Shown: positions 12,010-51,667 of the stretch, piece after piece
Layout of the letters: every line of letters begins with the position of its first letter
Numbering within the stretch: position 1 is the stretch's first letter
NCBI GenBank assembly: GCA_022495005.1
Contig: JAGYXB010001962.1
Span: 1,178,001 to 1,242,000 of the forward strand
Direction: 5' to 3'
DNA length: 64,000 bases
Source: Rhyacophila brunnea
Lineage: Eukaryota; Arthropoda; Insecta; Trichoptera; Rhyacophilidae
Program-made: the position numbers and the translations under genes
The notes under the pieces: generated by a model
The model's input: the letters and a program-made list of their open reading frames with translations, nothing else
What the model was told of the DNA's origin: nothing
The model's database searches: none

Positions 12010-12080
12010 TGTAGCGCGGGACCTCTCACTCGCACCGAATACTTTCTCCCTCGCACCGAGGCCGTCGCCTACAGTCCACG
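12010..12080 (+). repeat. Left terminal inverted repeat of composite
   Basis: Begins TGTAGCGCGGGACCTCTCAC and contains two CTCGCACCGA words and GGCCGTCGCCTACAGTCCACG. Inverted partner at 16350-16430. Confidence 0.85.
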
Positions 12081-12506
12081 CGGGCGCCTCCCATCGAGGC
12101 GTTCCCTACCTGCGCGCGCCGGCGTCTCAGCTGGACGGCGAGGAGAGGGTCGCCTGGTTGGGAAAATAAGGCGCTACGCAGCCCCCCATGGTTCCGCCAC
12201 AACAACCCGGCGACAAACAGCCACCCCGCATGGTCAGGACCCCCCCGCCCAACGCCACTATTAGCAGCTCCGCAAAATAGAAGACCCCTGCTCCCCACAC
12301 CCAAACCGACCAACTCCCATATTAATATCCCCAGAAACACCCACAACCTCCCCTTAATAAACCAATACAACAACGGCCCCTCAATATTCAATACAGACCG
12401 CAGGTACATCGCCAACCTCCAGGAACTTTGCACAGGCATGAAAAACCTGCTCCAGGTAGCCAATTCCACTCTCGCAGCAATCTGCACACCCCCCAATAAT
12501 TACTGA
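12015..12506 (+). CDS. Possible ORF1 of the LINE, no recognised domain
   Basis: Open for 164 codons from just after a TAG inside the left inverted repeat to a TGA 58 bases before ORF2. No suitable in-frame ATG is seen near the start. The first two thirds is arginine- and proline-rich and probably low in information because the DNA is GC-rich. The last third (ending RYIANLQELCTGMKNLLQVA, then STLAAICTPPNNY) looks more like a real helical protein. No zinc knuckle or RRM is visible, so it could be the C-terminus of a truncated Jockey ORF1 or fortuitous. The opposite-strand 156-codon frame at 12026-12496 is treated as its shadow. Confidence 0.3.
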   Translation, partial: RGTSHSHRILSPSHRGRRLQSTRAPPIEAFPTCARRRLSWTARRGSPGWENKALRSPPWFRHNNPATNSHPAWSGPPRPTPLLAAPQNRRPLLPTPKPTNSHINIPRNTHNLPLINQYNNGPSIFNTDRRYIANLQELCTGMKNLLQVANSTLAAICTPPNNY

Positions 12507-12564
12507 TCCTTTCCCACATCCCCAACAAAAACTACCTTCCACGACTAAATATCTAAAACCTTCA

Positions 12565-13005
12565 ATGGCTACTAAGATACTACCTTCTTCTCTCCAGATA
12601 GCATTCTGGAATGCTTCAGGAGCTGTCCACAGGGACAAACAGGAAATTACCAACTTCCTAGAGGACCACGACATAGACATCTTCTTGATAAACGAAACGT
12701 CTCTCAAACCACATACGACAGTTAACTTCCCCAATTATAACATCTACAGGACCGACAGACTCACGAACAAAGGAGGCGGAACAGCCATCCTCATCAAATC
12801 GACAATAGACCATTGCCCCCCAAGCTCACCAACAACATCAACCCCTCCACACTCCCTCCCAATAGAATCCACCTCAGTTTTAGTCAACACAAAAAACTAC
12901 GGACTAGTACAGTTCACCGCAGTGTACTGCCCCCCCAAGTCCAAAATACAGCAGTCAGACCTGCACGACCTAACATCCCGAATTTCCCCATATCAATCAT
13001 TGCTG
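12565..13005 (+). CDS. LINE ORF2 N-terminus: apurinic-like endonuclease (part)
   Basis: Starts at an ATG. LQIAFWNASG, then FLEDHDIDIFLINETSL and NIYRTDRLTNKGGGTAILIK, are the first motifs of the exonuclease-endonuclease-phosphatase domain of Jockey-clade LINEs, which nicks target DNA to prime reverse transcription. Near 13000 the sensible frame changes by a single-base deletion; the rest of the domain (IIAGDFNAKH, SDHKP) continues in the frame of the next entry. The open frame physically runs to 13101, but the last part is out of register. Confidence 0.8.
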
Positions 13006-15203
13006 GTGACTTTAACGCTAAACATTCCGCTTGGAACAGCACAACCACCACAGCTAGAGGCAAGGAAATTCATCAATACACAGAGAACTCAGAGACGGTA
13101 ATCGTAGCTTCATCAGAACCCACCATCTACACACCAGGCCGCCAATCCAACATCATAGACTTTGCACTCCTTAGAAACACTAGCTATATTCCGATAATCA
13201 GAGTAACTGACGAGCTTAACTCAGACCACAAACCCATCCTACTGTACTTGGGAGACCCAGTAGACCCTCTTGCCACACTCCCGGACAACACCAGATATAA
13301 GACATCTTGGGAAGAATTCGGAGCTTACCTGGAAGAACACCTCACACCGCACACCTTACTCACCAACGAACTAGCCATAGATACCGCGATAATGGATCTC
13401 ACTCAGAAAATCCATGAAGCAATTAAGACAGCTTCTACACCCTCAAATCCAATCACCAAACACAGACTTGACCTACCTAAACACATCAAACTTCTCATCA
13501 CAGAAAAAAACAGACACAGAAAACTAGGGCAACGCACAGGCGACCCCCAGGAATTCGCTCGAGCCAAACAACTCAAAGCGAAAATAGACCACGAAATCTT
13601 AGGTTACGTCCAAAGTAGATGGAATAGCAAGTTACAAGACCTTGTAAAAGGCAGCCAACCTTTCTGGTCACTCACCAAGATTCTAAGGCTCTCAAAATGC
13701 CCAATAACACCACTAACCGGACCCAAAGGGCCAGTATTCACTAACGCAGATAAAGCCACTTTCTTCGCGGACAGCATCCAAGACCAATTCTTTCCTAACG
13801 CCATAGACCGCTCGGACGCCGAAACTAGAAGACACGTAAACGCAATTATTAGAGAAGCCGGTGCCATTCTCAACTCAACACCTAGTCCTTCACCAACACC
13901 ACTAACAGCTGTTACTAAAGACGAAACAGACTACTTGATCAAGCGGATAAACAACCGCAAAGCACCAGGCAACGACGGGATTAGCAATCTCATACTTAAA
14001 ATGCTCCCAGACAAAGGCACTGAGGCCCTAACAAACATCCTCAATGCTTGTATGGACCTACAGTATTTCCCAGACGCCTGGAAATCAGCCGACGTAATAC
14101 TCATACCTAAACCAGGTAAGAACCTCAAGCTCCCACAAAACCATAGACCGATTAGCCTGCTCCCCCCAATGAGCAAGATACTGGAAAGAGCCATAAATTC
14201 AAGACTTAAAAGCATTATCCAAGAGAAAGAACTCATCCCCGATGTACAACACGGCTTCAGACAGGGACACTCTACCAACCACCAACTATTACGCACCTCG
14301 GAATACATCATAGACGTCCTCAACCATCACACATTCACAGTAGGATTATTTCTAGACATAGCCAAGGCCTTCGACAAAGTCTGGATCGAAGGCCTCATAG
14401 TTAAACTAGCCAGAGCAGGAATCGACCTCCCCATGATAAAAATCTTAAACTCATTTCTGACAGACAGACAATTCACGGTTAAATACCACGGTATCAGATC
14501 AACAACACGTACTCCTACCGCCGGAGTCCCCCAAGGTTTAGTTTTAGCCCCTACCCTCTACAACCTATTCACCAGGGACATTCCCATCCCACCTAACTCC
14601 CACTCAAATTCATGTCTAGTAGCTCAGTACGCTGACGATACCGCAATTCTAGCCAAATCCATCAACAGAAACCAAGCCGTAAAGATAGTACAGAAAGCAG
14701 CAGAAAACATCTCGCTATGGTGTAAGAAATGGCGCATCAAAGTCAACGCTGAAAAAAGTGCGGCAATAGTATTCTCACACCGCACCAACCCACACAGCGC
14801 ACGCGCCAAACCCCTTCACATGAACAACACGAACATCCCCTGGACCAACACAGTAAAGTATCTAGGCCTCCACTTAGACAAACATCTTACCTTCTTCAAA
14901 CACATAAATGTCAAAGACAGACAAGCCAGAATAGTCAAGGCAAGACTCAACCCAATGATAGGCAAACGCAGCAAACTATCCCTCAGAGGAAAACGTCTCC
15001 TATACACGGCAATTATAAGACCAATCATGACGTATGCCTGCCCTATCTGGGCACACGGAAGCCCCAATCTAATCAAAAAACTTCAGACTGTACAAAATGT
15101 AGCCCTACGCTCGATCACAAATGCTCCCTCCTACGTCAGAGGGAAAACCCTCCACAACGACCTAGAAATAGAACCCCTAGCATATACAAAAACTAGCAAT
15201 TAA
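12990..15203 (+). CDS. LINE ORF2: endonuclease C-part and Jockey-like reverse transcriptase
   Basis: This frame (open from 12813) carries the endonuclease ending GDFNAKHSAWNS, IIDFALL and LNSDHKPILLY. A linker follows, then the reverse transcriptase with NNRKAPGNDGISN, KNLKLPQNHRPISLL, QHGFRQGHST, FLDIAKAFDKVW, TAGVPQGLVLAPTLYNLF and the catalytic QYADDTAILA. The C-terminal TYACPIWAHGSP block is also present. This is the Jockey-clade order. Two frame breaks are seen: one near 13000, and one near 15190, where an extra A in an A run shifts the frame. The true C-terminus then continues in another frame to a TAA at 15331. The palm motifs are intact, but the copy as read could not give one protein. 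Confidence 0.88.
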   Translation: MSIIAGDFNAKHSAWNSTTTTARGKEIHQYTENSETVIVASSEPTIYTPGRQSNIIDFALLRNTSYIPIIRVTDELNSDHKPILLYLGDPVDPLATLPDNTRYKTSWEEFGAYLEEHLTPHTLLTNELAIDTAIMDLTQKIHEAIKTASTPSNPITKHRLDLPKHIKLLITEKNRHRKLGQRTGDPQEFARAKQLKAKIDHEILGYVQSRWNSKLQDLVKGSQPFWSLTKILRLSKCPITPLTGPKGPVFTNADKATFFADSIQDQFFPNAIDRSDAETRRHVNAIIREAGAILNSTPSPSPTPLTAVTKDETDYLIKRINNRKAPGNDGISNLILKMLPDKGTEALTNILNACMDLQYFPDAWKSADVILIPKPGKNLKLPQNHRPISLLPPMSKILERAINSRLKSIIQEKELIPDVQHGFRQGHSTNHQLLRTSEYIIDVLNHHTFTVGLFLDIAKAFDKVWIEGLIVKLARAGIDLPMIKILNSFLTDRQFTVKYHGIRSTTRTPTAGVPQGLVLAPTLYNLFTRDIPIPPNSHSNSCLVAQYADDTAILAKSINRNQAVKIVQKAAENISLWCKKWRIKVNAEKSAAIVFSHRTNPHSARAKPLHMNNTNIPWTNTVKYLGLHLDKHLTFFKHINVKDRQARIVKARLNPMIGKRSKLSLRGKRLLYTAIIRPIMTYACPIWAHGSPNLIKKLQTVQNVALRSITNAPSYVRGKTLHNDLEIEPLAYTKTSN

Positions 15204-28126: not shown

Positions 28127-28372
28127 GGTGGCCGCGCGGCTTAAGCGTTGGACTATAACGCCGTATGTCCCAGGTTCAAATCCTGGGTCTGGCAAGTACA
28201 CATATTGTTTTTCAATTTGTGTGTGAGTCAGGCTATGAACCTAATAGGTTGAGCAAGTGGCTGACATCCATTTCTCGTAAAAAACAACACCTGTTAATAC
28301 AAACCTCTACTCTGTGGATGCCCATATGATCCTATTAGGATCGGACATGGTCGGATATTAATGGTGGGGTAT
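28127..28372 (+). repeat. tRNA-derived SINE, copy 1
   Basis: Has a pol III promoter layout: an A-box-like TGGCCGCGCGGCTTAAGCG and a B box GGTTCAAATCC 40 bases on, then an unrelated tail (AAGTACACATATTGTTTTTC ... GATCCTATTAGGATCGGACA). The second copy at 34861-35742 has the same head and tail. No acceptor-stem pairing, so not a tRNA gene. Confidence 0.7.
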
Positions 28373-28417
28373 TTTTTTAAAACTGTCATTTCAAAATTTG
28401 CATATTTTCAGTAGGTA

Positions 28418-28734
28418 TGTTATGGGTTGGTTTTATTAAAAGATATTATTAATTATATCTAACGTTTTCTTTTATTTCCGATTTATAACACAAAATCACA
28501 TACAATTATTATTACTGGTATACTAATATAATGTTGAATATTACAAGGTACACAATGCGTGTTTCTTGTGAGACGTCCGACTGAAGAGTGTTTTGTTATT
28601 CTGAAATACTTCTAGGAAGGAAACAATAAATATGATGCAAAAAAACTTAAGAAATGAACAAGATGCAACATGTTTCAGCCTGTCGAACCCACAGGCTGAC
28701 TAACTAACGGTACAAATTTGAATGGCACATAACA
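28418..28734 (-). repeat. 3' LTR
   Basis: 317 bp, bounded by the short inverted repeat TGTTATG/CATAACA (as read on +). By eye identical to 34311-34627. The outer flank GGTA (28414-28417) matches the four bases after the other LTR. Confidence 0.93.
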
Positions 28735-28749
28735 CCTCCCTTCAAAAGA
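28735..28749 (-). other. Polypurine tract
   Basis: On minus the sequence directly before the 3' LTR reads GAAGGGAGG, the expected primer for plus-strand DNA synthesis. Position and composition fit. Confidence 0.7.
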
Positions 28750-29008
28750 ATAAACTTATGGTACACAATTTTTTTACCATGAGTTTGGTTAAAAGAAATT
28801 ATAATCATATTAATACATTGGTTTTCGAAAATAGATTTTGTTGTGAACAATAGATTGTGATGTGTGACAAATAGATTTAGAACAATTGAAGTCATATTAC
28901 ATACAGGTATATATATTTTTTTTTACATTTAGAAAAACAATAAAATTCTTAATATTAGTACATATTATAATAAAGTAAATAATAACATAATCCTTTGAAT
29001 GAGATTAT
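28750..29008 (-). other. Short non-coding tail of the retrotransposon
   Basis: About 260 bp between the integrase stop and the PPT with no envelope gene or other sustained frame on minus. Confidence 0.6.
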
Positions 29009-29700
29009 TTATTGTGAGGGATCTAAATTAGCTTGCTTAATTCTATTTGTGTGAACCTTAACTAACTTATTCTGAACCTTAATTGTAACATTTAACGGAC
29101 TGTTAACCTTGACAATTTCGTAAGGTCCTTGGAAATAAGGAGATAATTTTTTTGATTTATTTATTTTAGAGGCGTTATTGGTTAAGTATATTTTATCACC
29201 GATTTCAAATGTTCTTAATGTTTTGTCCTTGTTATACCTTATCTGAGTTTTTTCTTTTCCTTTTATCAAATTGTTTCTAGCTATTTCATGTGATTTCGTT
29301 AATTTAAGTTTAAGATTATCGATAAATGAATCGTATGTGTACTTGAATTCAAATGTTTTTAGAGCTGTCGGCAAACTTGGTAGATTTCCAAAAACTAATT
29401 CGAATGGTGTAAATTTTGTGGCGGTATGCGGAGTAGTGTTATAACTAAACATGGAGAATGGAAGCCATTCATCCCAATCGGTTTGATTCGGAGAGATATA
29501 ATGTTTTAGATAATCAGCTAAAGTAGCGTGACTTCGTTCTAGGGATCCATTACTGGTAGGCGTATATGCGCTAGTTTGTATCTGTTCGATTTTAAAAAGT
29601 TTGGCTACTTCCTTGAGAATATTTGAAGTAAAATCCTTTCCTTGATCGGTAAGTATTTTATCTGGAATTCCATATTGACAAATAAATTTTGAAGTTAGTC
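29009..29700 (-). CDS. pol: pol: integrase core second half and C-terminus
   Basis: In this frame the integrase continues after a single-base deletion near 29697-29700. It contains the second catalytic aspartate region (LTDQGKDF), the region of the catalytic glutamate (TSNGSLERSH), HYISPNQTDWDEWLP, MFSYNTTPHTATKFTPFELV and a C-terminal GPY-type module (SPYFQGPYEIVKV), ending with TAA at 29009. Only the part from 29452 down begins with a methionine, but similarity is continuous upstream. It catalyses insertion of the cDNA into chromosomes. No chromodomain is seen. Confidence 0.85.
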
Positions 29701-31353
29701 CTTTGCAATGGTTACTGCTTCATGATTCGGGATTGGGTAACATTGAGAGTATTTTGTTAAATCGTCTTGGAGGGTTAATATATATTTGTTTCCACTTTCG
29801 GTTAAAGGTAGAGGACCTACTATATCTAAAGCAATACGTTCAAATGGTTTCAGACTGGTGGTAGTAATTTCTATGGGTTGTTTTAAGTTTTTTCGGGATA
29901 TTTTATTTTTTTGGCATGATTCACATTGTTTAATATACATTTTAATATCCTTTTGCATATTAGTCCATCGATATTTAAGTCGTATACGGTTCAAGGTCCT
30001 GTGATATCCTGAATGTCCGCTTAAAGGAGAATCATGGTATTCCTTAAGTATTTGTGGAATTTCATTGTGATTAGGGTTAATTATTGTATTATAACAAATA
30101 GTGATATTTATATTTGAGTTATTGAAAACATATTGAATAATCTTTTTAATTTTTTCCCAATTGAGGTTATCCAAACCACAACCGAGTCGTGGAAATGAAA
30201 TATTTGGTTCTTTGTTATTTTTAAGAATATTTTTTAAATTTGATAATGCCAGAAAAACGGAATTATAGTTTGGTTTTTCCCAAAAATTTTGTTTTGTGAT
30301 TAAGTGGTAAATATTATTTTTACGAAATTTTGATTCGAGTATATCTCCTATTCTCGAATGTGTACTAACTAATTCATCATGATTGGTAATGATTGTACTT
30401 ATTTCTAAAGCTATCCCTTTGGACATCGATTTATCATTTGAAATACAGTGCGCAATTGATTGTTTTTGATTTAGAAGGGATTCGTCGATTTCATTTAAGT
30501 TGAAATTGAAATGTTCATTTTGTTTCTCGAGAAAGTCATTGTATGAATATGAAGGATTATTGGTAGATGGGTTATTTACAAGAACAGTATTTTGATTTCC
30601 GATTCGGGACAAAGCGTCAGCATTAGAGTTTAATTTACCTGGTTTATAAATGATTTCGTAATCGTATTCTTCTAATTTTAATCGCCATCTAATGAGTCTA
30701 GAACCGGGGTCCTTAACATTAAAAAGCCATGTGAGAGGACGATGATCCGTGATTATTTTAAATTTTCGGCCATAGAGATAGGGTCTGAAGTGTTTACAAG
30801 ACCAAACGATCCCGAGTAACTCCCGTTCAGTCGTAGAGTAATTTGTTTCAGCCCTATTTAGTGTACGAGATGCATATGCTATAGGAAGATCTCTGGATAT
30901 AGGTCCTTGTGATAATACGGCCCCTATAGCAAAGTTTGAAGCATCCGTTGTAAGGTTAAACGGTTGCGTGAAGTCTGGAAATTGTAAGACTGGTTCAGTA
31001 AGTAATTTATTTTTTAATGTTTCGAAAGCATCATCTTGAACCTTAGTCCATTTGAAAATTACATCCTTTTTTAATAAACAAGTAAGATTTTGAGAAATTT
31101 TTGAAAACTCTGGAATAAATTTTCTGTAATATCCTACGAGACCAAGAAATGATTTTATATCTTTGGTATTTTTAGGCTTGGGATAGTTTGTAATTGATAA
31201 GACTTTTGAGGGGTTTGGTTTAACTCCATCTTCGGAAATGATATGTCCTAAGTACGCAACTTCGTGACGCATAAATTCGCATTTATCCGGTTGCAGTTTA
31301 AGATTGTGCTGGTTAAGGCGTTGAAAGATTTCGCGTAGTTTCTGAGAATGGGA
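29695..31353 (-). CDS. pol: pol: RT end, RNase H, macro domain, integrase start
   Basis: Open on minus from just after the TAA at 31354 to a TAA at 29695; residue numbers run from the ATG at 31272. RT thumb and connection (VAYLGHIISEDGVKPNP; FLGLVGYYRKFI) occupy 5-55. RNase H (FNLTTDASNFAIGAVL, TERELLGIVW, ITDHRPLTWL, LNSNADALSRI) occupies 105-224. A macro domain lies at about 262-397. The integrase zinc site has H420, H424, C450 and C453, and the first catalytic aspartate is in ERIALDIVGPLP (D483). A normal Gypsy pol goes directly from RNase H to integrase, so the inserted domain is unusual. The frame is lost near residue 525 by a one-base deletion. Confidence 0.92.
   Translation of the reverse strand, partial: SHSQKLREIFQRLNQHNLKLQPDKCEFMRHEVAYLGHIISEDGVKPNPSKVLSITNYPKPKNTKDIKSFLGLVGYYRKFIPEFSKISQNLTCLLKKDVIFKWTKVQDDAFETLKNKLLTEPVLQFPDFTQPFNLTTDASNFAIGAVLSQGPISRDLPIAYASRTLNRAETNYSTTERELLGIVWSCKHFRPYLYGRKFKIITDHRPLTWLFNVKDPGSRLIRWRLKLEEYDYEIIYKPGKLNSNADALSRIGNQNTVLVNNPSTNNPSYSYNDFLEKQNEHFNFNLNEIDESLLNQKQSIAHCISNDKSMSKGIALEISTIITNHDELVSTHSRIGDILESKFRKNNIYHLITKQNFWEKPNYNSVFLALSNLKNILKNNKEPNISFPRLGCGLDNLNWEKIKKIIQYVFNNSNINITICYNTIINPNHNEIPQILKEYHDSPLSGHSGYHRTLNRIRLKYRWTNMQKDIKMYIKQCESCQKNKISRKNLKQPIEITTTSLKPFERIALDIVGPLPLTESGNKYILTLQDDLTKYSQCYPIPNHEAVTIAKD
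30079..30501 (-). other. Macro domain (TARG1/ALC1-like) embedded in pol
   Basis: About 140 residues between RNase H and integrase have the conserved blocks of TARG1/OARD1-type macro domains in order. These are QSIAHCISNDKSMSKGIALE (ADP-ribose-binding start), a helix, IYHLITKQNFWEKPNY, LALSNLKNIL, and ISFPRLGCGLDNLNWEKIKK, then NINITICY. The lysine in LITK (codon 30292-30294) and the aspartate in GCGLD (30169-30171) match the positions of TARG1 K84 and D125, which remove ADP-ribose from acidic residues. The MacroD-type glycine-rich catalytic loop is not present. Activity is inferred, not shown. The identification itself rests on several aligned motifs. Confidence 0.88.
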
Positions 31354-32652
31354 TTATATGGAGTCAGCGTATATTACAATATCATCCAAGTAAACAAAGC
31401 ATTTAATTCCTTGTAAACCAGAGAGAACATTATTCATTAGTCTCTGAAAACACGATACCGCATTTTTAAGCCCAAAAGCCATTTTAGAAAACTGATAATG
31501 TCCTTGATCAGTGGAAAAAGCAGTTTTAGCTGAATCTTTAGGAGACATGGGGATTTGGTGGAAACCGGAGGCTAAATCTAGAATTGTGAAATATTTCGAG
31601 TGACCCAACTGATCTAATATTTCGGAAATATTAGGAATCGGATAACTATCATTAACAGTTACATCATTAAGCTTTCTATAATCGATAACGATTCTCCATT
31701 TCTTTTTACCTGATGCGTCATTTTTTTTAGGTACAATCCAAAGAGGCGAGGACCATGGTGAATTGGAGTGTTCTATTATATTTTGCGAAAGCATTTTCTC
31801 GATTTGATTTTTAACTTCTGTCTTATGTACTTCCGGATACCTGTACGATTTAGTATATATTGGTACTTGAGATGTCACAGGTATTTCATGATGCGTAGTG
31901 TTTGTATGGGTTAATAAATCACCATCTAAATGAAATATATTATTGAATTCTTGACATAATGTTAAAACTGAATTGGCTTCTTCCGTATTTAAATGGGATA
32001 ATCGTAATTCATTTTGAATTCGTTGATTACGCGATGGATTATTACCTAAAGATTCTAAAGTATTTGCAAAGTAAAGAAAACTTTCGTGCTCATTAAAAGG
32101 TTCGAGGTATATGTGATTAGACAATATATTAACCGACTTTTCACTATTATTAAGAACGGTCGCATATACCTTGTTTCCAGGACGTACCTTAGTTAGAGCA
32201 CGTGATAGGAATACATCTGGAAGAATTTGAACATCTGGTATTACACCTTGGTTAATTTCAGGATTTCGAACAACTAATTCTATAAGTGTTTCAGATCTGG
32301 GCTTTAAGGTATACATAGGATTATTGATTTTATTGAATATAGGAATAATTTCATCGTGTATATGTAATGTATTAGTTTCATAGTCAATTTTCGCATTATT
32401 ATTGACGAAAAAGTCATGACCTAGTAATCCGTCTAAAGGAACATTAGTGACATGGTTTGGAATAATGTGAATAGTATGACGAATTTGCATATATTTTAAA
32501 GGAAATGTTAAATTAACTGTTCCGATAGTTTTTACTGGATTCGGAGAGTTATCGATACCTTTGAGCGTGACGAGTTCAGTTTCATTAACAAGTTCGTTTC
32601 CATCTAGGGAACTTATTTTTACTAATGAGATGTCGGCGCCAGTATCAATCAA
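31354..32652 (-). CDS. pol: pol: aspartic protease and reverse transcriptase
   Basis: The frame opens with the protease active site DTGADISLV (residues 3-11) and the later LLGHDFF flap-proximal block. A spacer follows, then the reverse transcriptase: SPWSSPLWIVPKK, WRIVIDYRKLN, YFTILDLASGFHQIPM, FSKMAFGLKNAVSCFQRLM and FVYLDDIVIYA (catalytic YLDD at about 421-424). A TAA follows directly after YADSI at 31354-31356; the same frame continues into the next segment, so this is a point nonsense change or misread base. The ATG at 32652 is probably not the true start: pol coding continues upstream to the gag overlap in another frame, broken at an A9 run (32663-32671). Confidence 0.92.
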   Translation of the reverse strand: MIDTGADISLVKISSLDGNELVNETELVTLKGIDNSPNPVKTIGTVNLTFPLKYMQIRHTIHIIPNHVTNVPLDGLLGHDFFVNNNAKIDYETNTLHIHDEIIPIFNKINNPMYTLKPRSETLIELVVRNPEINQGVIPDVQILPDVFLSRALTKVRPGNKVYATVLNNSEKSVNILSNHIYLEPFNEHESFLYFANTLESLGNNPSRNQRIQNELRLSHLNTEEANSVLTLCQEFNNIFHLDGDLLTHTNTTHHEIPVTSQVPIYTKSYRYPEVHKTEVKNQIEKMLSQNIIEHSNSPWSSPLWIVPKKNDASGKKKWRIVIDYRKLNDVTVNDSYPIPNISEILDQLGHSKYFTILDLASGFHQIPMSPKDSAKTAFSTDQGHYQFSKMAFGLKNAVSCFQRLMNNVLSGLQGIKCFVYLDDIVIYADSI

Positions 32653-32707
32653 TAATTTTAGATTTTTTTTTCTGTATATGGAAATTCAACATACGCTGTA
32701 CTTGGTT

Positions 32708-32881
32708 CTAATGAAAATATTCTGCCTGAATGCTTTGCACGTTCCGGGAGGAGGCAGGTCTCCTGGAGTGCTGGAAGTTTAAAGTGTTTGGATAATTTTG
32801 CGAATTTTGTGAATTTTGCGGAGATTGATCGAAAGAAACATTTGGATTTGTTTGATTAGTTTGAAGCTGAGAAGGATTCAA
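32708..32881 (-). CDS. gag: gag C-terminal extension overlapping pol
   Basis: One base out of register with the main gag frame, minus reads LNPSQLQTNQTNPNV ... NYPNTLNFQHSRRP ... EYFH and stops with TAG at 32708. The polar, Asn/Gln-rich composition fits a Gag tail after the zinc knuckle. To join the main Gag, one base must be missing near 32880. Inside it lies the slippery site at 32777-32783, and pol-like sequence (CLLPERAKHSGRIFSLEP) is found in the -1 frame beyond. Confidence 0.6.
   Translation of the reverse strand: MNPSQLQTNQTNPNVSFDQSPQNSQNSQNYPNTLNFQHSRRPASSRNVQSIQAEYFH
32737..32783 (-). promoter_or_regulatory. Candidate -1 ribosomal frameshift signal
   Basis: On minus, T TTA AAC (32783-32777) sits in the correct phase of the gag tail frame, the canonical X XXY YYZ slippery heptamer. 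After a 5-base spacer comes a possible structure: GCAC (32771-32768) pairing with GTGC (32740-32737) around an inner AGGAG/CTCCT hairpin (32764-32749). Slipping back one base moves reading into the frame of the protease leader. This matches how many Gypsy/retroviral elements make Gag-Pol. Confidence 0.6.
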
Positions 32882-33645
32882 TTATTTTTAAAACGATTAT
32901 TGTACTGTCGTTTTCTGCACTCTTCGATTAAGTGTCCTGATTTTTTGCAATACCTGCACACTTTATTTACTGAAGTTTTGAACTGATTTATATTTTGATT
33001 GTTGTAATTGAAATGATGTGACTGATTATGATTATTATTTTTATAGTTTATGTGCATACCTTTGAAATCATTTAAAATCTTATCCTCGTCTATAGCCACG
33101 TTTGCTGCTTCTGTTAATGTTGTTGGCTTAGACAATCGAACTACCATAGACGTTTGAGGATGGATTCCTAGCATGAAGGTATTTAGAGCGCTATCCTCGA
33201 TTTGTTTAATCCGACCTTTTAACTCGTCGTCATCCTTATGTATAAGTCTGATTGCATTGATGAGGTTATTTCTGCAATTCTCTACACGCTGAATACATTT
33301 GAAAATAGGTTCTTTATAATCCTGTTTGCAATTTCTGAGTTCTAATTCTAATTGTGATGTATGTTTATTTTCACCGTAAGTAGTATTTAGAAAAGATTTG
33401 AAATTGTCATAAGATTCAAATTTATAATTCGAAATTGTATATTTGGCGTTACCTACTACGCAGTGAATCATGTATTTTAACAGGACGGGTTTTAATTCAT
33501 TCGGACATATTTCAAAAGCCGTATCACAGTCATTAAGAAATGGGTATAGATTTTTCCTTTCTCCATCGAAGGTTGAAATAAATTTCATCAGGGTATCTAA
33601 GCTTAGTGACGACATAGTATTATTGTAGTTATTGATAATTTTCAT
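32878..33645 (-). CDS. gag: gag: capsid-like region and CCHC knuckle
   Basis: 255 codons from ATG. A retrotransposon capsid-like helical region (FISTFDGERKNLYPFLNDCD, LELRNCKQDYKEPIFKCIQR, FMLGIHPQTSMVVRLSKP, TEAANVAIDEDKI) is followed by an Asn-rich linker. One zinc knuckle, CRYCKKSGHLIEEC, spans residues 230-243 (CxxCxxxxHxxxxC with the usual glycine). The frame ends at TGA 32878, probably early, because a Gag-like tail continues in the -1 register. Gag packages the element RNA into particles. Confidence 0.9.
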   Translation of the reverse strand: MKIINNYNNTMSSLSLDTLMKFISTFDGERKNLYPFLNDCDTAFEICPNELKPVLLKYMIHCVVGNAKYTISNYKFESYDNFKSFLNTTYGENKHTSQLELELRNCKQDYKEPIFKCIQRVENCRNNLINAIRLIHKDDDELKGRIKQIEDSALNTFMLGIHPQTSMVVRLSKPTTLTEAANVAIDEDKILNDFKGMHINYKNNNHNQSHHFNYNNQNINQFKTSVNKVCRYCKKSGHLIEECRKRQYNNRFKNN

Positions 33646-34290
33646 ATAAATGAATGAATAATTAATTTACCGTTCTGTTGTGGAGAATAAATACCTACAC
33701 TTTACACTGTCACTGTTATATACACTAAGCACTTGACACTCGGAGATTATGTCTTGATGATATTGGAGATTTGAAGACTTGGAGACTTGAAGATCTGATG
33801 GACGCTTGAAGAATATGAAGCTGTAGCTTGAAGCATTTGAAGCTGGAGCTTGAAGAATTGGAGTTGGAGCTTGTAGAAAAGGAGTTGGAGCTTGAAGAAT
33901 TCGAGATTGGAGTTCTAAGAATTGAAGATTTGAGTTTGTAGAATTGGAGTTGGAGCTTGAAGAATTCAAGACTTGAGTTTGATGAATTCGAGATTGGAGT
34001 TTGACGAATTCGAGTTTTGATTTTGAAGAATTGGAGATTATTCGTCGAATTTAGGAATTTGAAGATATTTGAAGACTCTTGATTTAATGATTTTGAAGAT
34101 TTAGGAGAATATACAACTTTATATTATTAATTAGATTTTTAATTTCCGTTCGTTTTTCACAACGATGTACTTTAAAAAAACAATTAGTTTATACGTAATA
34201 TTATTATGTGTTTTATTTTTAGGATTCTTGCTATTTTTAAAGAATTTGAATTCACCGTTAATTTATTTCACGTTATTTAGCTTTATCCAC
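33646..34290 (-). other. Retrotransposon leader with degenerate tandem repeats
   Basis: The untranslated leader between PBS and gag. From about 33777 to 34080 it is built of variations of a 12-to-24-bp unit (GAAGAATTGGAGTTGGAGCTT on + with many substitutions). A 100-codon minus frame across it (33667-33969) is low-complexity Ser/Asn/Leu-rich and probably a by-product. Confidence 0.6.
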
Positions 34291-34304
34291 ACTTCCTGAC
34301 ACCA
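34291..34304 (-). other. Primer binding site, tRNA-Leu-like
   Basis: Six bases inside the 5' LTR, minus reads TGGTGTCAGGAAGT. TGG pairs with the CCA end, and TGTCAGGA resembles the complement of a tRNA-Leu acceptor 3' end (TCCTGACACCA). Assignment to leucine is tentative. Confidence 0.55.
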
Positions 34305-34310
34305 ATTTTA

Positions 34311-34627
34311 TGTTATGGGTTGGTTTTATTAAAAGATATTATTAATTATATCTAACGTTTTCTTTTATTTCCGATTTATAACACAAAATCACATACAATT
34401 ATTATTACTGGTATACTAATATAATGTTGAATATTACAAGGTACACAATGCGTGTTTCTTGTGAGACGTCCGACTGAAGAGTGTTTTGTTATTCTGAAAT
34501 ACTTCTAGGAAGGAAACAATAAATATGATGCAAAAAAACTTAAGAAATGAACAAGATGCAACATGTTTCAGCCTGTCGAACCCACAGGCTGACTAACTAA
34601 CGGTACAAATTTGAATGGCACATAACA
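34311..34627 (-). repeat. 5' LTR
   Basis: 317 bp, identical by eye to the 3' LTR, with the same TGTTATG/CATAACA ends. It is followed on + by GGTA, completing the target duplication with 28414-28417. Confidence 0.93.
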
Positions 34628-34860
34628 GGTACACAGGATATTTTTTTAGATATTCTTACTATATAAAAGTAAAAATTGCAAAAAACTATTAATAGATATC
34701 GTAATTTATTTTTTGCATACTTATTGGTTTTTTTGACAACTTTGCTTATTAACGAATTGGCGAAAAATAATTGAAAAGAGTTTATGAGCTCCAAACAATT
34801 GGTTGGTATAATCGACCCTTCTATTTTCGATGGAAATGTTGATTTGTTGTTGGGATATAT

Positions 34861-35742
34861 TGGTGGCGTTGCTTAAGCGTCGGCCTATAGCATCGTGGGT
34901 CCCAGGCTCGAATCCTGGATCTGACAAGTACACATATTGTTTTTCAATTTGCGTATGAGTCAGAGAATGTGCCTAAGCGATAGCGCTCATAGAACGCGTC
35001 GAGCGGGCGAAGTCGGCGAATGCAGTGTTAATTCATAAGCATAATCACACGTCTCTTCCCGCGCATTACCCTTCACCTATGTAATAAGCGGCCCAAGCAG
35101 CACAAAACAATTATTTTTAAAGCGTCTCTCATAACAAAGCAATAAAAATATTATATTATTTCGGGGCTTGTAATAAATATTTACGACGACATTATTCAAC
35201 CAGCGATAAACTTGACACGCAGTAAAATTAAACAATGATTCTCTGTTATTAAATAATTGCTTTTCGCCCGTCGATCGACGAGGCCTCGAGCGGCGTAATT
35301 TTGGTAGCCGTGTTCAATGAATGGACTCCATTGTATTTTCTTTCATTCGTATCGCCGAGAAGCGGTGATTCGCGAAAAAACGATGATTCATGCGGCGGGC
35401 GCGTATAATGCGTCGTGAAATCCAGTGGGCGCTGGCGTATTTGATTACGTTGTATTTTCGTTGATTTACGCGCCACTTGTAGAAATTTTGCGCGAGCGCC
35501 GCACTCGCTGCGTCAATGGGCTTTATGCCTAATAGGTTGAGCAAGTGGTTGACATCGATTTCTCGTAAAAACAAAATCTGTTAAAGCACATTGACTGCTG
35601 ACTACTTTTTTAATTAACACATTTAAATAGCATGCTAATTATATCGAATGGCCACATAATCGTTACGCGCTAGGTGCGTCTATAACGTCCAATGTCCACT
35701 CTGTGGATGCCCGTAAGATCCTATTAGGATCGGACATGGTCG
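34861..35742 (+). repeat. tRNA-derived SINE, copy 2, interrupted
   Basis: Head with GGTGGCGTTGCTTAAGCGTC and B-box GGCTCGAATCC, then the same AAGTACACATATTGTTTTTC body and GATCCTATTAGGATCGGACA tail as 28127-28372. It is split by Harbinger-like MITE G at 34977-35529 and has another insertion at about 35586-35697, which recurs inverted at 60733-60852. Confidence 0.65.
34977..35529. repeat. Harbinger-like MITE, family G, copy 2, inside SINE
   Basis: Right end GGGCTTTATGCC; the left end is diverged (GCGATAGCGCTCATAGAACG). TAA on both sides is the target duplication within the SINE word CCTAATAGGTTGAG. Interior matches 17231-17743. Confidence 0.7.
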
Positions 35743-37160: not shown

Positions 37161-37542
37161 GTAAAGCATCTTTGTATATTTTCGCGAATATGCTATTATT
37201 AAATATGCCACAAGTAGCACGCTACGCAAGGCAATGCCAATTAATAGTAATTGTCGCCTCCCATAATAGTACAATATAACTCTTGTATTTTTGGCTATCA
37301 ACTTATAGTTGATAGCCAAAAATACATAATTTGAAAACCCCTCAATTACTACTAACTGCTAGACAGGACTTGTACCTGTAACCACTAGATTCACCCCAAT
37401 GTAATTAAGCTATGTGCATCTTATTTAATTACGCGCGAAATAACGTTAAAAAATAAAGAGCGTAGCATTCACAAATCTTGTGAATTATTCGTTGAATAAA
37501 TAAAAATACCTAGTTTATATATGAGTCGCCTAGCTAGAGTAA

Positions 37543-37911
37543 AGCGTCAATTACATTGAGCTTCTTTACGAGCTGTTTATTGGCCAATTTACAATCTGCC
37601 TGTAAAGTCGCCCAGTGTAATCAAAGAACAAGCTAATAAGCTGGTTGTAAACACTCTACCAAGAAAAGTTGAAAGCCAGTCAACTTTACACGCTACACGC
37701 CGGCGTGTGGGCCAACTGCGTCTGCGCAGTAGAGCGCAGTAGCAACCTCCCGGTAAAAAAACGAACTACGTTCTGTCAAAATAGTCGCTGGTTTGTGGCT
37801 TCTCAGCGAATGGAAAGTTTTGTGTGTAATCATCAAATCGCAGTAGCTGAATCGCCCGTTTTTAAATTCGCCAACAAACAGCTCGTAAAGAAGCTCAATG
37901 TAATTGACGCT
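37543..37911. repeat. Harbinger-like MITE, family K, copy 1
   Basis: AGCGTCAATTACATTGAGCT and AGCTCAATGTAATTGACGCT are perfect inverted ends, with TAA on both sides. The frame at 37669-37914 is internal and not a real gene. Copy 2 at 46804-47171 is in opposite orientation. Confidence 0.85.
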
Positions 37912-38276
37912 TAATAACTCACATTTTACAATTTTGTCATTTTTGAATTTTTTAAATTTAAATTAAAAACTGTCTTTTCTATTTCTCCTCCTCAAAATAT
38001 TTCTACATTAGAAATAATACTGTTCATCGGCTTTCACAAAGGATTAGGCAATTTAATATTAATAAAACTCCACGCGATATCATACACAAACTGAATTACG
38101 GGCGCGGGGAATGTAGTTGCTGCAAAAATAAATTCAAGAGAAGAAGTTTTAGTTCCAGAAACGACCGTGGTGACGTAGAAGACACGATTTGAAAGTCGCA
38201 CTGTATGTTCATATTTAAGTGACTCGTTTTCTATAACTATTCTTCGTGCAGTGATCGATTATTGATTATTTTATAG

Positions 38277-46653: not shown

Positions 46654-46803
46654 GTAATAATTTGATTTATAAATTGTCTATTATAATAATTTAGGGTTGC
46701 TACAATTTTTTTGAGTCAAGTCCGGACGCTTGTTTGGGACCTTGACCCAAGCTTTTATCTTATAATTGATAACTTATAAAAACACGTATATTTTTAGTTC
46801 TTA

Positions 46804-47171
46804 AGCGTCAATTACATTGAGCTTTTTTACGAGCTGCTTATTGGCGAATTTAAAAGCGGGCGGTTCAGCTTCTGCGATTTGATGATTACACACAAAACTT
46901 TCCATTCGCTGGAAAGCCACAAGCCAGCCACTATTTTGACGGAACGTAGTTCGTTTTTTTACCGGGAGGTTGGTACTGCGCTCTACTGCGCAGGCGCAGT
47001 AGGCCCACACGCCGCGTGTAGCGTATAAAGTTGACCGGCTTTCAACTTTTCTCGGTGGAGTGTTTACAACCTGCTTATTAGCTTATTCGATGATTACACT
47101 GGGCGAATTTACAGGCAGATTATAAATTCGCCAATAAGCAGCTCGTAAAAAAGCTCAATGTAATTGACGCT
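46804..47171. repeat. Harbinger-like MITE, family K, copy 2
   Basis: AGCGTCAATTACATTGAGCT at the left and its inverse at the right, TTA on both sides. Opposite orientation to 37543-37911. It sits in the intron between the TGQ and CxxxC exons. Confidence 0.85.
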
Positions 47172-47906
47172 TTACTCAATAATTTTAACTCAGTAATGGT
47201 GGCGCTTTTAGCAGTGGACTGTATTATTTTTCAGGACGATCTGGATGCCAGATCTAGGGGTGGGGGCAATTTAACAGAATGCCAGACACTGACCTTTATG
47301 ATGATTTTTGATGGCTCCGTGGGCTGGTTGCACTGTCACTCGCGCGGTATTGTTTGATTTATGTCACCCGGTGCGCAGAACTTGACGGTACACTGTTTAT
47401 GGATGATAGTGATATATGAATGATGATGGCAGGTTGTATGATCGATGATAGCCGGTATCACGGCTTGCCAGGTATTCAGAAGTATCCGACGGTCCCACTA
47501 TATCAAACTGACGAACTACTTCTTAATCAGTCTGTATTATTGAGTCAATCACTAAGTGACGGAAAGCTATTAGAAACCCGCACGCGTCCGCTGTGTCGAT
47601 CTAACTGAATGTCTCATTTACGCTTGAATTATGATTGTAACTCCGCACTTGCCTGGTCTTGTGACAATTACAAGGAATTTGGAGATGGGTGGGGAAATAA
47701 GGAATAAATGCGAATAAAAATGGCTCAGCCACGTAGAGATTTTTAAATTAATTTCGCATTGGAAGAGGCACAGGCGGTAGGTACCTAGAATTTTTATAGA
47801 GATATTTTATTTAAAAATAATACCTACAGGTACGTGAATTGGTAACGACACACAAAACGACCGTTCGTAAGATATTTGGATCAATTTCTATCAAGAATAT
47901 ATTATT
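47172..47906. other. Intron-like spacer
   Basis: A strong acceptor-like TTATTTTTCAG at 47234 is followed by DDLDARS in frame, but no donor in phase is seen, so I do not call an exon. No other gene features. Confidence 0.4.
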
Positions 47907-51500: not shown

Positions 51501-51596
51501 TACTTCCTTAGGCGCGTTTGGAAAATCAGATCAGAGTGTATTTTTGGCGTGTGACATGTAACACATAATTATTTATTTTTCACACAAAAATAAACG

Positions 51597-51667
51597 CACT
51601 CGATTGGATTCGAACCACCGATTGTTCGGTTATCAGCCGAACGCACTACCTTTACGCCACACTCACA
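51597..51667 (-). repeat. tRNA-Ile-like pseudogene or SINE head
   Basis: Minus has TGGCGTAAAGGTAGTGCG, a well-paired anticodon arm TTCGG-CTGATAA-CCGAA (anticodon GAT) and a TTCGAAT T-loop. The T-stem and acceptor stem do not pair and no normal 5' end is seen, so a decayed tRNA-derived sequence is more likely than a gene. Confidence 0.4.

Follow-up and report, generated by a model that had tools for sequence, protein, structure and literature searches.

Does an insect retrotransposon encode an ADP-ribosyl hydrolase next to its integrase, and what might such an enzyme do there? The question is raised by a stretch of 64,000 nucleotides from Rhyacophila brunnea (contig JAGYXB010001962.1, positions 1,178,001 to 1,242,000, forward strand), which we refer to in its full length as the window. 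It holds a 6.2-kb Ty3/Gypsy long terminal repeat (LTR) retrotransposon on the minus strand (28418-34627), with identical LTRs and the target duplication GGTA. A first-pass annotation, made from the letters alone, had placed a macro domain resembling TARG1 inside the pol polyprotein of this element, between RNase H and the integrase zinc site.

The motifs quoted for that proposal do lie in the order given, in one open frame of 552 amino acids (aa). The start assigned to the frame (29695) was correct. Its end was not (31353, instead of 31272), and its strand had to be corrected to minus; frame 1 of the plus strand is full of stops over the coordinates 29695-31353. Pfam matches to RNase H and to Integrase_H2C2 flank the macro segment, as had been claimed. 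When compared with the PDB, the translated segment P0001 (30040-30540, minus strand) matched human TARG1/OARD1/C6orf130 (E 2.2e-20, 76.5 bits, residues 26-148), to which the macro domain of the window copy is 36% identical. A five-family profile found TARG1 at about E 1e-32; DarG and the remaining macrodomains scored far worse, the best of them at 5e-4. The Pfam Macro model was weak in the window copy (E 0.045 on a 141-aa piece, under the cut-off), above its cut-off at the same place in pol of family D described below (26.4 bits, cut-off 22), and just under it in family E. The NCBIfam DarG model matched 7/8 members (best E 4.8e-12), among them the window copy (E 9.9e-10), whose 38 bits lie under the model cut-off of 250. 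An AlphaFold model from eight aligned sequences had a mean per-residue confidence (pLDDT) of 85.1 and a predicted template-modeling (TM) score (pTM) of 0.80. TARG1 entries took ranks 1 to 8 in Foldseek (4j5q, TM 0.77/0.87, 1.7 Å, 33% identity), followed by DarG structures. These PDB, profile, and Foldseek matches confirm that the domain between RNase H and the integrase zinc site is a TARG1/OARD1-type macro domain, and a chance match as the source of the signal is excluded.

TARG1 removes ADP-ribose esters from Asp/Glu, and also acts on the phosphate ends of nucleic acids, with a catalytic pair of Lys84 and residue 125 (PMC7050489, cited here, like the other papers below, from an excerpt). Residue 125 is given as Glu in that excerpt, and the PDB sequence has Asp there; our TARG1 numbering was counted by hand along the PDB chain. 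The two positions correspond to K83 and D124 of P0001. The lysine and aspartate are both kept in the PDB alignment, as first annotated, and they are invariant in the five catalytic-type domains.

All evidence for a clade of such elements comes from the window's own genome (1.09 Gb). The macro segment matches this genome at least 151 times, counting fragments, across many contigs (150 of 208 candidates were scored). We fetched the 30 best loci along with 40 hand-picked from the list and two others, and their similarity in pol to the window copy placed them in family A (the window's own, about 98%), B (80-85%), C (60-64%), D (61%), E (about 55%), F (50-52%), and G (53-55%). One representative of each of the seven families has RT (reverse transcriptase), RNase H, H2C2, and rve domains in one open frame with a macro domain between, and in all seven it lies directly upstream of the integrase zinc site. 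The distance from RNase H to the zinc site is 189-207 residues in families with a single macro domain and 376 in family E. A scan with H2C2 (150 listed of 645 candidates) supplied seven further loci, chosen away from the sorted macro matches. Six of them (L080-L085), from three other Gypsy lineages, have a spacer of 78-109 residues in which a macro match is absent. The seventh (L086) carries a degenerate macro domain and was left out of the comparison. A tree of RT-RNase H from the representatives separates the macro-bearing families from the three macro-less lineages with support of 100/99. A genome-wide Pfam Macro scan gave four matches: the family D copy and three short pieces on C726 and C1345, which we take for exons of ordinary macro genes. 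The macro domain is a trait of the element clade, not of a single copy.

Two types of the domain occur in this clade. Families A to D have one catalytic-type domain each, families F and G have only a degenerate type, and family E (L045-L050) has two domains in tandem, a catalytic-type one beside RNase H and a degenerate one beside the integrase. In a profile alignment, Lys, active-site Gly, and Asp were all kept in the catalytic type in 30/30 family A loci, 6/6 of B, 7/7 of C, 2/2 of D (both loci being one and the same copy), and 6/6 first domains of E (one of them partial). A decayed locus, L070, yielded fragments only. Copies within a family are not independent, so the independent count is five families. 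In the degenerate type, Lys was kept in 18/18 domains (E 6, F 9, G 3), Gly in 0/18, and Asp in 7/18 (E 6/6, F 1/9, G 0/3). Within the HCISxD block of these domains, other residues stand in place of HCIS, and the Asp of the block is kept in 15/18, with Glu in G. Profiles of the two types matched each other with a probability of 99.9 (E 4e-33, flanking linker columns included), and the degenerate profile found only TARG1 in the PDB (E 1.1e-5; 4.4e-5 in another run). The AlphaFold model of a family F domain, whose input alignment also held catalytic-type members, had a pLDDT of 84.2 and matched TARG1 at TM 0.72/0.84. Because DarG works without the acidic residue (PMC7050489), loss of Asp does not prove that the degenerate type is inactive, although inactivity is likely.

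We also compared substitution rates. In two pairs of A versus B, the macro domain had a nonsynonymous rate (dN) of about 0.125, a synonymous rate (dS) of 1.6-1.7, and dN/dS of 0.073-0.079. The ratio was 0.040-0.042 in RT-RNase H, 0.032-0.033 in the integrase, and 0.20-0.21 in the linker. With values of about 1.6-1.9 in RT, macro domain, and integrase, dS in these pairs approaches saturation; the ratios are therefore rough, and we relied on the contrast between segments alone. For many pairs further apart, saturation left no value (nan). The A/B comparison shows the macro domain to be under strong purifying selection. The degenerate macro domains of F_L053 and F_L054 had dN/dS of 0.069, with a macro dS of 0.73.

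Where did the domain come from? In a tree with three viral TARG1-like outgroup proteins, the element domains formed one clade (98/97), and human TARG1 together with the genome's own TARG1-like loci formed a separate one (100/97). The element domains thus do not group with animal TARG1. When fewer outgroup rows were used, the element clade had support of 94/94 (not starred). In the tree with three viral outgroup proteins, A_L005 represents the window's family; the window row, A_L021, B_L036, C_L038, and F_L054 (near-duplicates) and L089 were left out, and the long branches of G and one viral row are a caveat. Recent capture of a host TARG1 gene is ruled out by the separation of the two clades. 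Instead, the separate element clade probably reflects one shared capture, which predates, or lies outside, the TARG1 genes now in the host. The two domains of family E do not stem from a recent tandem duplication (approximately unbiased [AU] test, p 1e-5), and the second groups with family F (97/94). Placement of its first domain in the TARG1 clade, as a second capture, was rejected less strongly (p-AU 0.028). In an earlier tree whose sole outsider was human TARG1, that domain had stood beside TARG1 (96/96), a position that an early branch fits equally well. A single clade of the A-D domains was neither supported nor rejected (p-AU 0.26), and the RT, macro, and integrase trees place E and G differently, with weak support. 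The history may have involved an ancient duplication, after which either domain was lost, or else exchange between lineages.

Among the TARG1-like loci of this genome, L087 (C899:285690-287290) is a 576-aa open frame with three tandem domains that are 45-53% identical to human TARG1, all three with Glu at the catalytic Asp position. Further loci lie on C1096 (L088, Asp kept), C2055, C608, C1726, and C1573. Together they are probably an expanded host TARG1-like gene family.

We propose, at a probability of roughly two in three, that a Gypsy clade anciently captured a TARG1-like macro domain, and that it most likely works as an ADP-ribosyl hydrolase with the Lys/Asp pair in families A to D and in E's first domain. 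A hydrolase acting in the integration complex is the best-supported reading because the Lys/Asp pair is retained, the domain adjoins the integrase, and the selection pattern fits. Computation has established the identity and position of the domain, its presence in seven families, the conservation of its residues, the selection on it, and its common origin; its activity, processing, target, and benefit we infer as follows. After proteolytic processing, the domain would most likely stay joined to the integrase, extending its N terminus; less likely, it would form a tail of RT-RNase H. It might cleave ADP-ribose esters off Asp/Glu residues in proteins of the integration complex or of chromatin, or clear ADP-ribose from phosphate ends of the element's own nucleic acid. 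Host poly(ADP-ribose) polymerases (PARPs) that react to cDNA ends or integration breaks would thereby be kept from stalling integration. The domains of F and G and the second domain of E, in which the active-site Gly is gone, are probably structural or binding modules.

Several observations weigh against this proposal, besides the near-saturation of dS. In the macro domain, dN is roughly double the value for RT or integrase. Retention of Asp does not by itself prove activity in the catalytic type, and the Asp of the HCISxD block is Asn in 2/7 family C copies. Families F and G are without Gly and Asp (one F domain excepted for Asp), yet they have frames of up to 1303 and 1284 aa. In all nine non-autonomous copies fetched (L061-L069), one shared in-frame deletion pair removes RT-RNase H and most of the macro domain. 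Their pol match stops at or before residue 509 of 552, so that at least the start of the integrase core is missing, and the two that were read through keep gag and protease. In 9/30 family A loci, the pol match starts at residue 242, and the two of these that were read have protease (one also gag) fused to macro domain and integrase, without RT-RNase H. Among the copies examined, the macro domain was lost along with the replication enzymes and kept where an integrase is coded. The window copy is itself defective, with a TAA at 31354-31356 (minus strand), shortly beyond the motif of the RT active site, and an integrase that changes frame near 29698-29719. Its frames are not intact, whereas other family A copies have frames of up to 1282 aa. 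The first-pass annotation had called the domain apparently maintained, free of stops, and set in otherwise normal pol. Maintenance holds for the clade, which carries the domain in the same genome under purifying selection, and freedom from stops holds for the macro segment and its frame; neither normal pol nor an absence of stops applies to the copy as a whole, and sister families have a degenerate form of the domain.

A further point on that side is that viral, prokaryote, plasmid, and phage collections contained no second retroelement of this kind, but this absence means little because eukaryotes are hardly represented in them. Viral contigs (IMG/VR) gave no match to the window domain and none to an integrase profile. 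The A2 profile picked out three TARG1-like frames in them, open over 165-168 residues (L077-L079). The Lys/Asp pair is intact in L077 and L078, and L079 has Asn at the Asp position. Searches of prokaryote genome contigs gave no match. Matches were present in 3 plasmid and 12 phage records; where these carried an annotation, it was mostly that of a macro, deacetylase-like, or hypothetical protein.

The macro domain might instead be a reader and not an eraser, binding ADP-ribose and directing the integrase to PARylated chromatin or DNA breaks much as the integrases of other Gypsy elements are guided by chromodomains, with catalysis incidental or absent. We consider this unlikely, though it is the strongest of the rivals. 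A pure reader would need no Lys/Asp pair, and both residues are kept in five families. The position directly upstream of the integrase zinc site would suit a reader, as would the persistence of degenerate F domains under purifying selection. However, HCIS is replaced in the degenerate domains, which makes binding there doubtful, even if the Asp of the block is mostly kept. The ALC1 class of macrodomains comprises readers as well as erasers (PMC7050489).

Less probable still is that the fold is a structural spacer that merely lengthens the integrase N terminus, ADP-ribose being irrelevant. N-terminal extension domains occur in some retroviral integrases, and the F domain is predicted to hold the macro fold though Gly is gone and Asp is gone in 8/9. 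The degenerate sisters fit such a model for themselves. But it leaves retention of the pocket in A to D and the first domain of E unexplained, family E has both types side by side as if for separate jobs, and macro-less lineages cope with 78-109 aa.

There is only a slim chance that the substrate is nucleic acid in the manner of DarG, with ADP-ribose stripped from the ends or bases of element RNA or cDNA. The domain is nearer to TARG1 than to DarG in sequence and fold, and its Lys/acid pair has no counterpart in DarG. Pointing the other way are the match to the DarG model (under the cut-off in the window copy), the place of DarG next after TARG1 in Foldseek, and the fact that TARG1 too acts on ADP-ribosylated nucleic acid ends (PMC7050489). 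Finally, an artefact (chance motif match, chimeric assembly, or one-off insertion) might be suspected from the weak Pfam Macro score and the broken window copy, but it is refuted by strong profile and fold matches and by the recurrence of the segment on many contigs and in seven families.

Returning to the hydrolase, a TARG1-like active site kept in families about 55-85% identical in pol allows a direct test of whether retrotransposons are restricted by ADP-ribosylation, and sister families with decayed pockets, plus one family with both versions, offer a natural comparison of enzyme and pseudo-enzyme. More tentatively, and with the odds somewhat against it, we suggest that an LTR clade has an ADP-ribosyl hydrolase of its own as part of the integrase, which would imply that ADP-ribosylation restricts retrotransposon integration in these animals, and that pseudo-enzymes (F, G) and a dual polyprotein (E) arose later.

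The features of the element are listed in Table 1. With its LTRs, short target duplication, gag, and pol order of protease, RT, RNase H, and integrase, it is a Ty3/Gypsy element. In the LTR comparison, all 319 bases compared were identical, and 317-bp repeats with TG...CA ends are the best reading. The identity of the LTRs suggests a young insertion. The primer-binding-site-like sequence may be of the tRNA-Leu type, which is one of the criteria for the mdg3 clade of Ty3/Gypsy. There is no env after the integrase: the integrase open reading frame (ORF) ends at 29009, only about 275 bp from the 3' LTR (28734), so the element is not an errantivirus, the env-bearing type of insect Gypsy. The 64-kb window contains no second copy of the macro domain.

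Table 1. Features of the Ty3/Gypsy element, in window coordinates
Feature	Position	Strand	Evidence or remark
5' LTR, 317 bp	34311..34627	-	Identical to 28418-28734; TG...CA ends
3' LTR, 317 bp	28418..28734	-	Identical to 34311-34627
Target-site duplication GGTA, left copy	28414..28417	.	Read by eye
Target-site duplication GGTA, right copy	34628..34631	.	Read by eye
Primer-binding-site-like TGGTGTCAGGAAGTGTGG just inside 5' LTR	34287..34304	-	Coordinates counted by hand
gag ORF with zinc knuckle	32878..33666	-	Pfam Retrotrans_gag E 7e-5, zf-CCHC_2 E 5e-4, both under curated cut-offs
Protease and N-terminal part of RT	31354..32685	-	RVT_1 E 3e-27; RVP weak, E 0.0078
Open frame, 552 aa: RT end, RNase H, linker, macro, integrase zinc site, core start	29695..31353	-	
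RNase H	30664..30975	-	PF17917, residues 127-230 of 552-aa ORF, E 4e-40
TARG1-type macro core (IAHCIS ... ITICY)	30091..30456	-	PDB phmmer, profile, AlphaFold, Foldseek
Catalytic-type lysine codon (LITK; TARG1 Lys84 position)	30292..30294	-	PDB alignment
Catalytic-type aspartate codon (CGLD; TARG1 Asp125 position)	30169..30171	-	PDB alignment
Integrase H2C2 zinc-binding domain	29899..30072	-	PF17921, residues 428-485, E 1e-21
Integrase core and C-terminal part, different frame in this copy	29009..29719	-	rve E 7e-5, SH3_Tf2-1 E 3e-5, both under curated cut-offs

Imperfect short tandem repeats lie between the 5' LTR and gag (33804-34051). The flanks of the element (28129-28353 and 34861-35742) share diverged repeats that are 81-94% identical, so its insertion site may have been in or next to an older repeat. 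Elsewhere in the window, a non-LTR long interspersed nuclear element (LINE) with endonuclease and RT occupies 12015-15203 on the plus strand (RVT_1 E 1e-40, Exo_endo_phos_2 E 5e-15), and local GC climbs to 47% there. Inverted-repeat arms of 53 nucleotides bound a unit of about 370 bp (37542-37912) with a 92% identical inverted second copy (46796-47177); it looks like a small DNA transposon. A tRNA-model match of 37 bits (51595-51666, minus strand) is either a gene or derived from a short interspersed nuclear element (SINE).

How does this domain compare with known systems? It shares with TARG1/OARD1/C6orf130, an ALC1-like hydrolase, the fold, the Lys84 and Asp125 positions, the HCISxD block, and the Gly of the catalytic loop. 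However, TARG1 is a free-standing cellular protein, whereas the element domain lies inside a retrotransposon polyprotein and forms a separate clade. Chromodomain Gypsy elements (chromoviruses) also have an extra chromatin-related domain attached to the integrase, but theirs is a C-terminal histone reader, and the macro domain is on the N-terminal side and of enzyme type. The DarG antitoxin macrodomain is of the same class, going by the profile matches, and differs in having no acidic residue of the pair (PMC7050489), which the catalytic-type element domains have. Literature searches, several of them covered through their top-ranked titles and abstract openings, gave no description of the order RNase H-macro-integrase or of a macro domain in LTR-retrotransposon pol, although unremarked protein-database entries may exist. 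Capture of a macro domain by a reverse-transcribing element has a precedent in fish retroviruses, for which macro domain ORFs are reported (PMC4977317). Those are vertebrate viruses with the domain in additional ORFs, going by that excerpt, whereas here it is in frame within pol of an env-less Ty3/Gypsy element. Among predicted viral structures, several of the best matches, with up to 32% identity, came from insect-associated RNA viruses that have macro domains (thrips flavi-like and negev-like viruses, Hubei virga-like virus, and Kadipiro virus VP8); none of the 50 matches listed bore a retroelement name, about half being unnamed. RNA virus macro domains are reported to counter host PARPs (PMC7232374, PMC6521996). 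If the wider suggestion above is true, these elements would be the retroelement parallel to the PARP/macro domain conflicts of RNA viruses.
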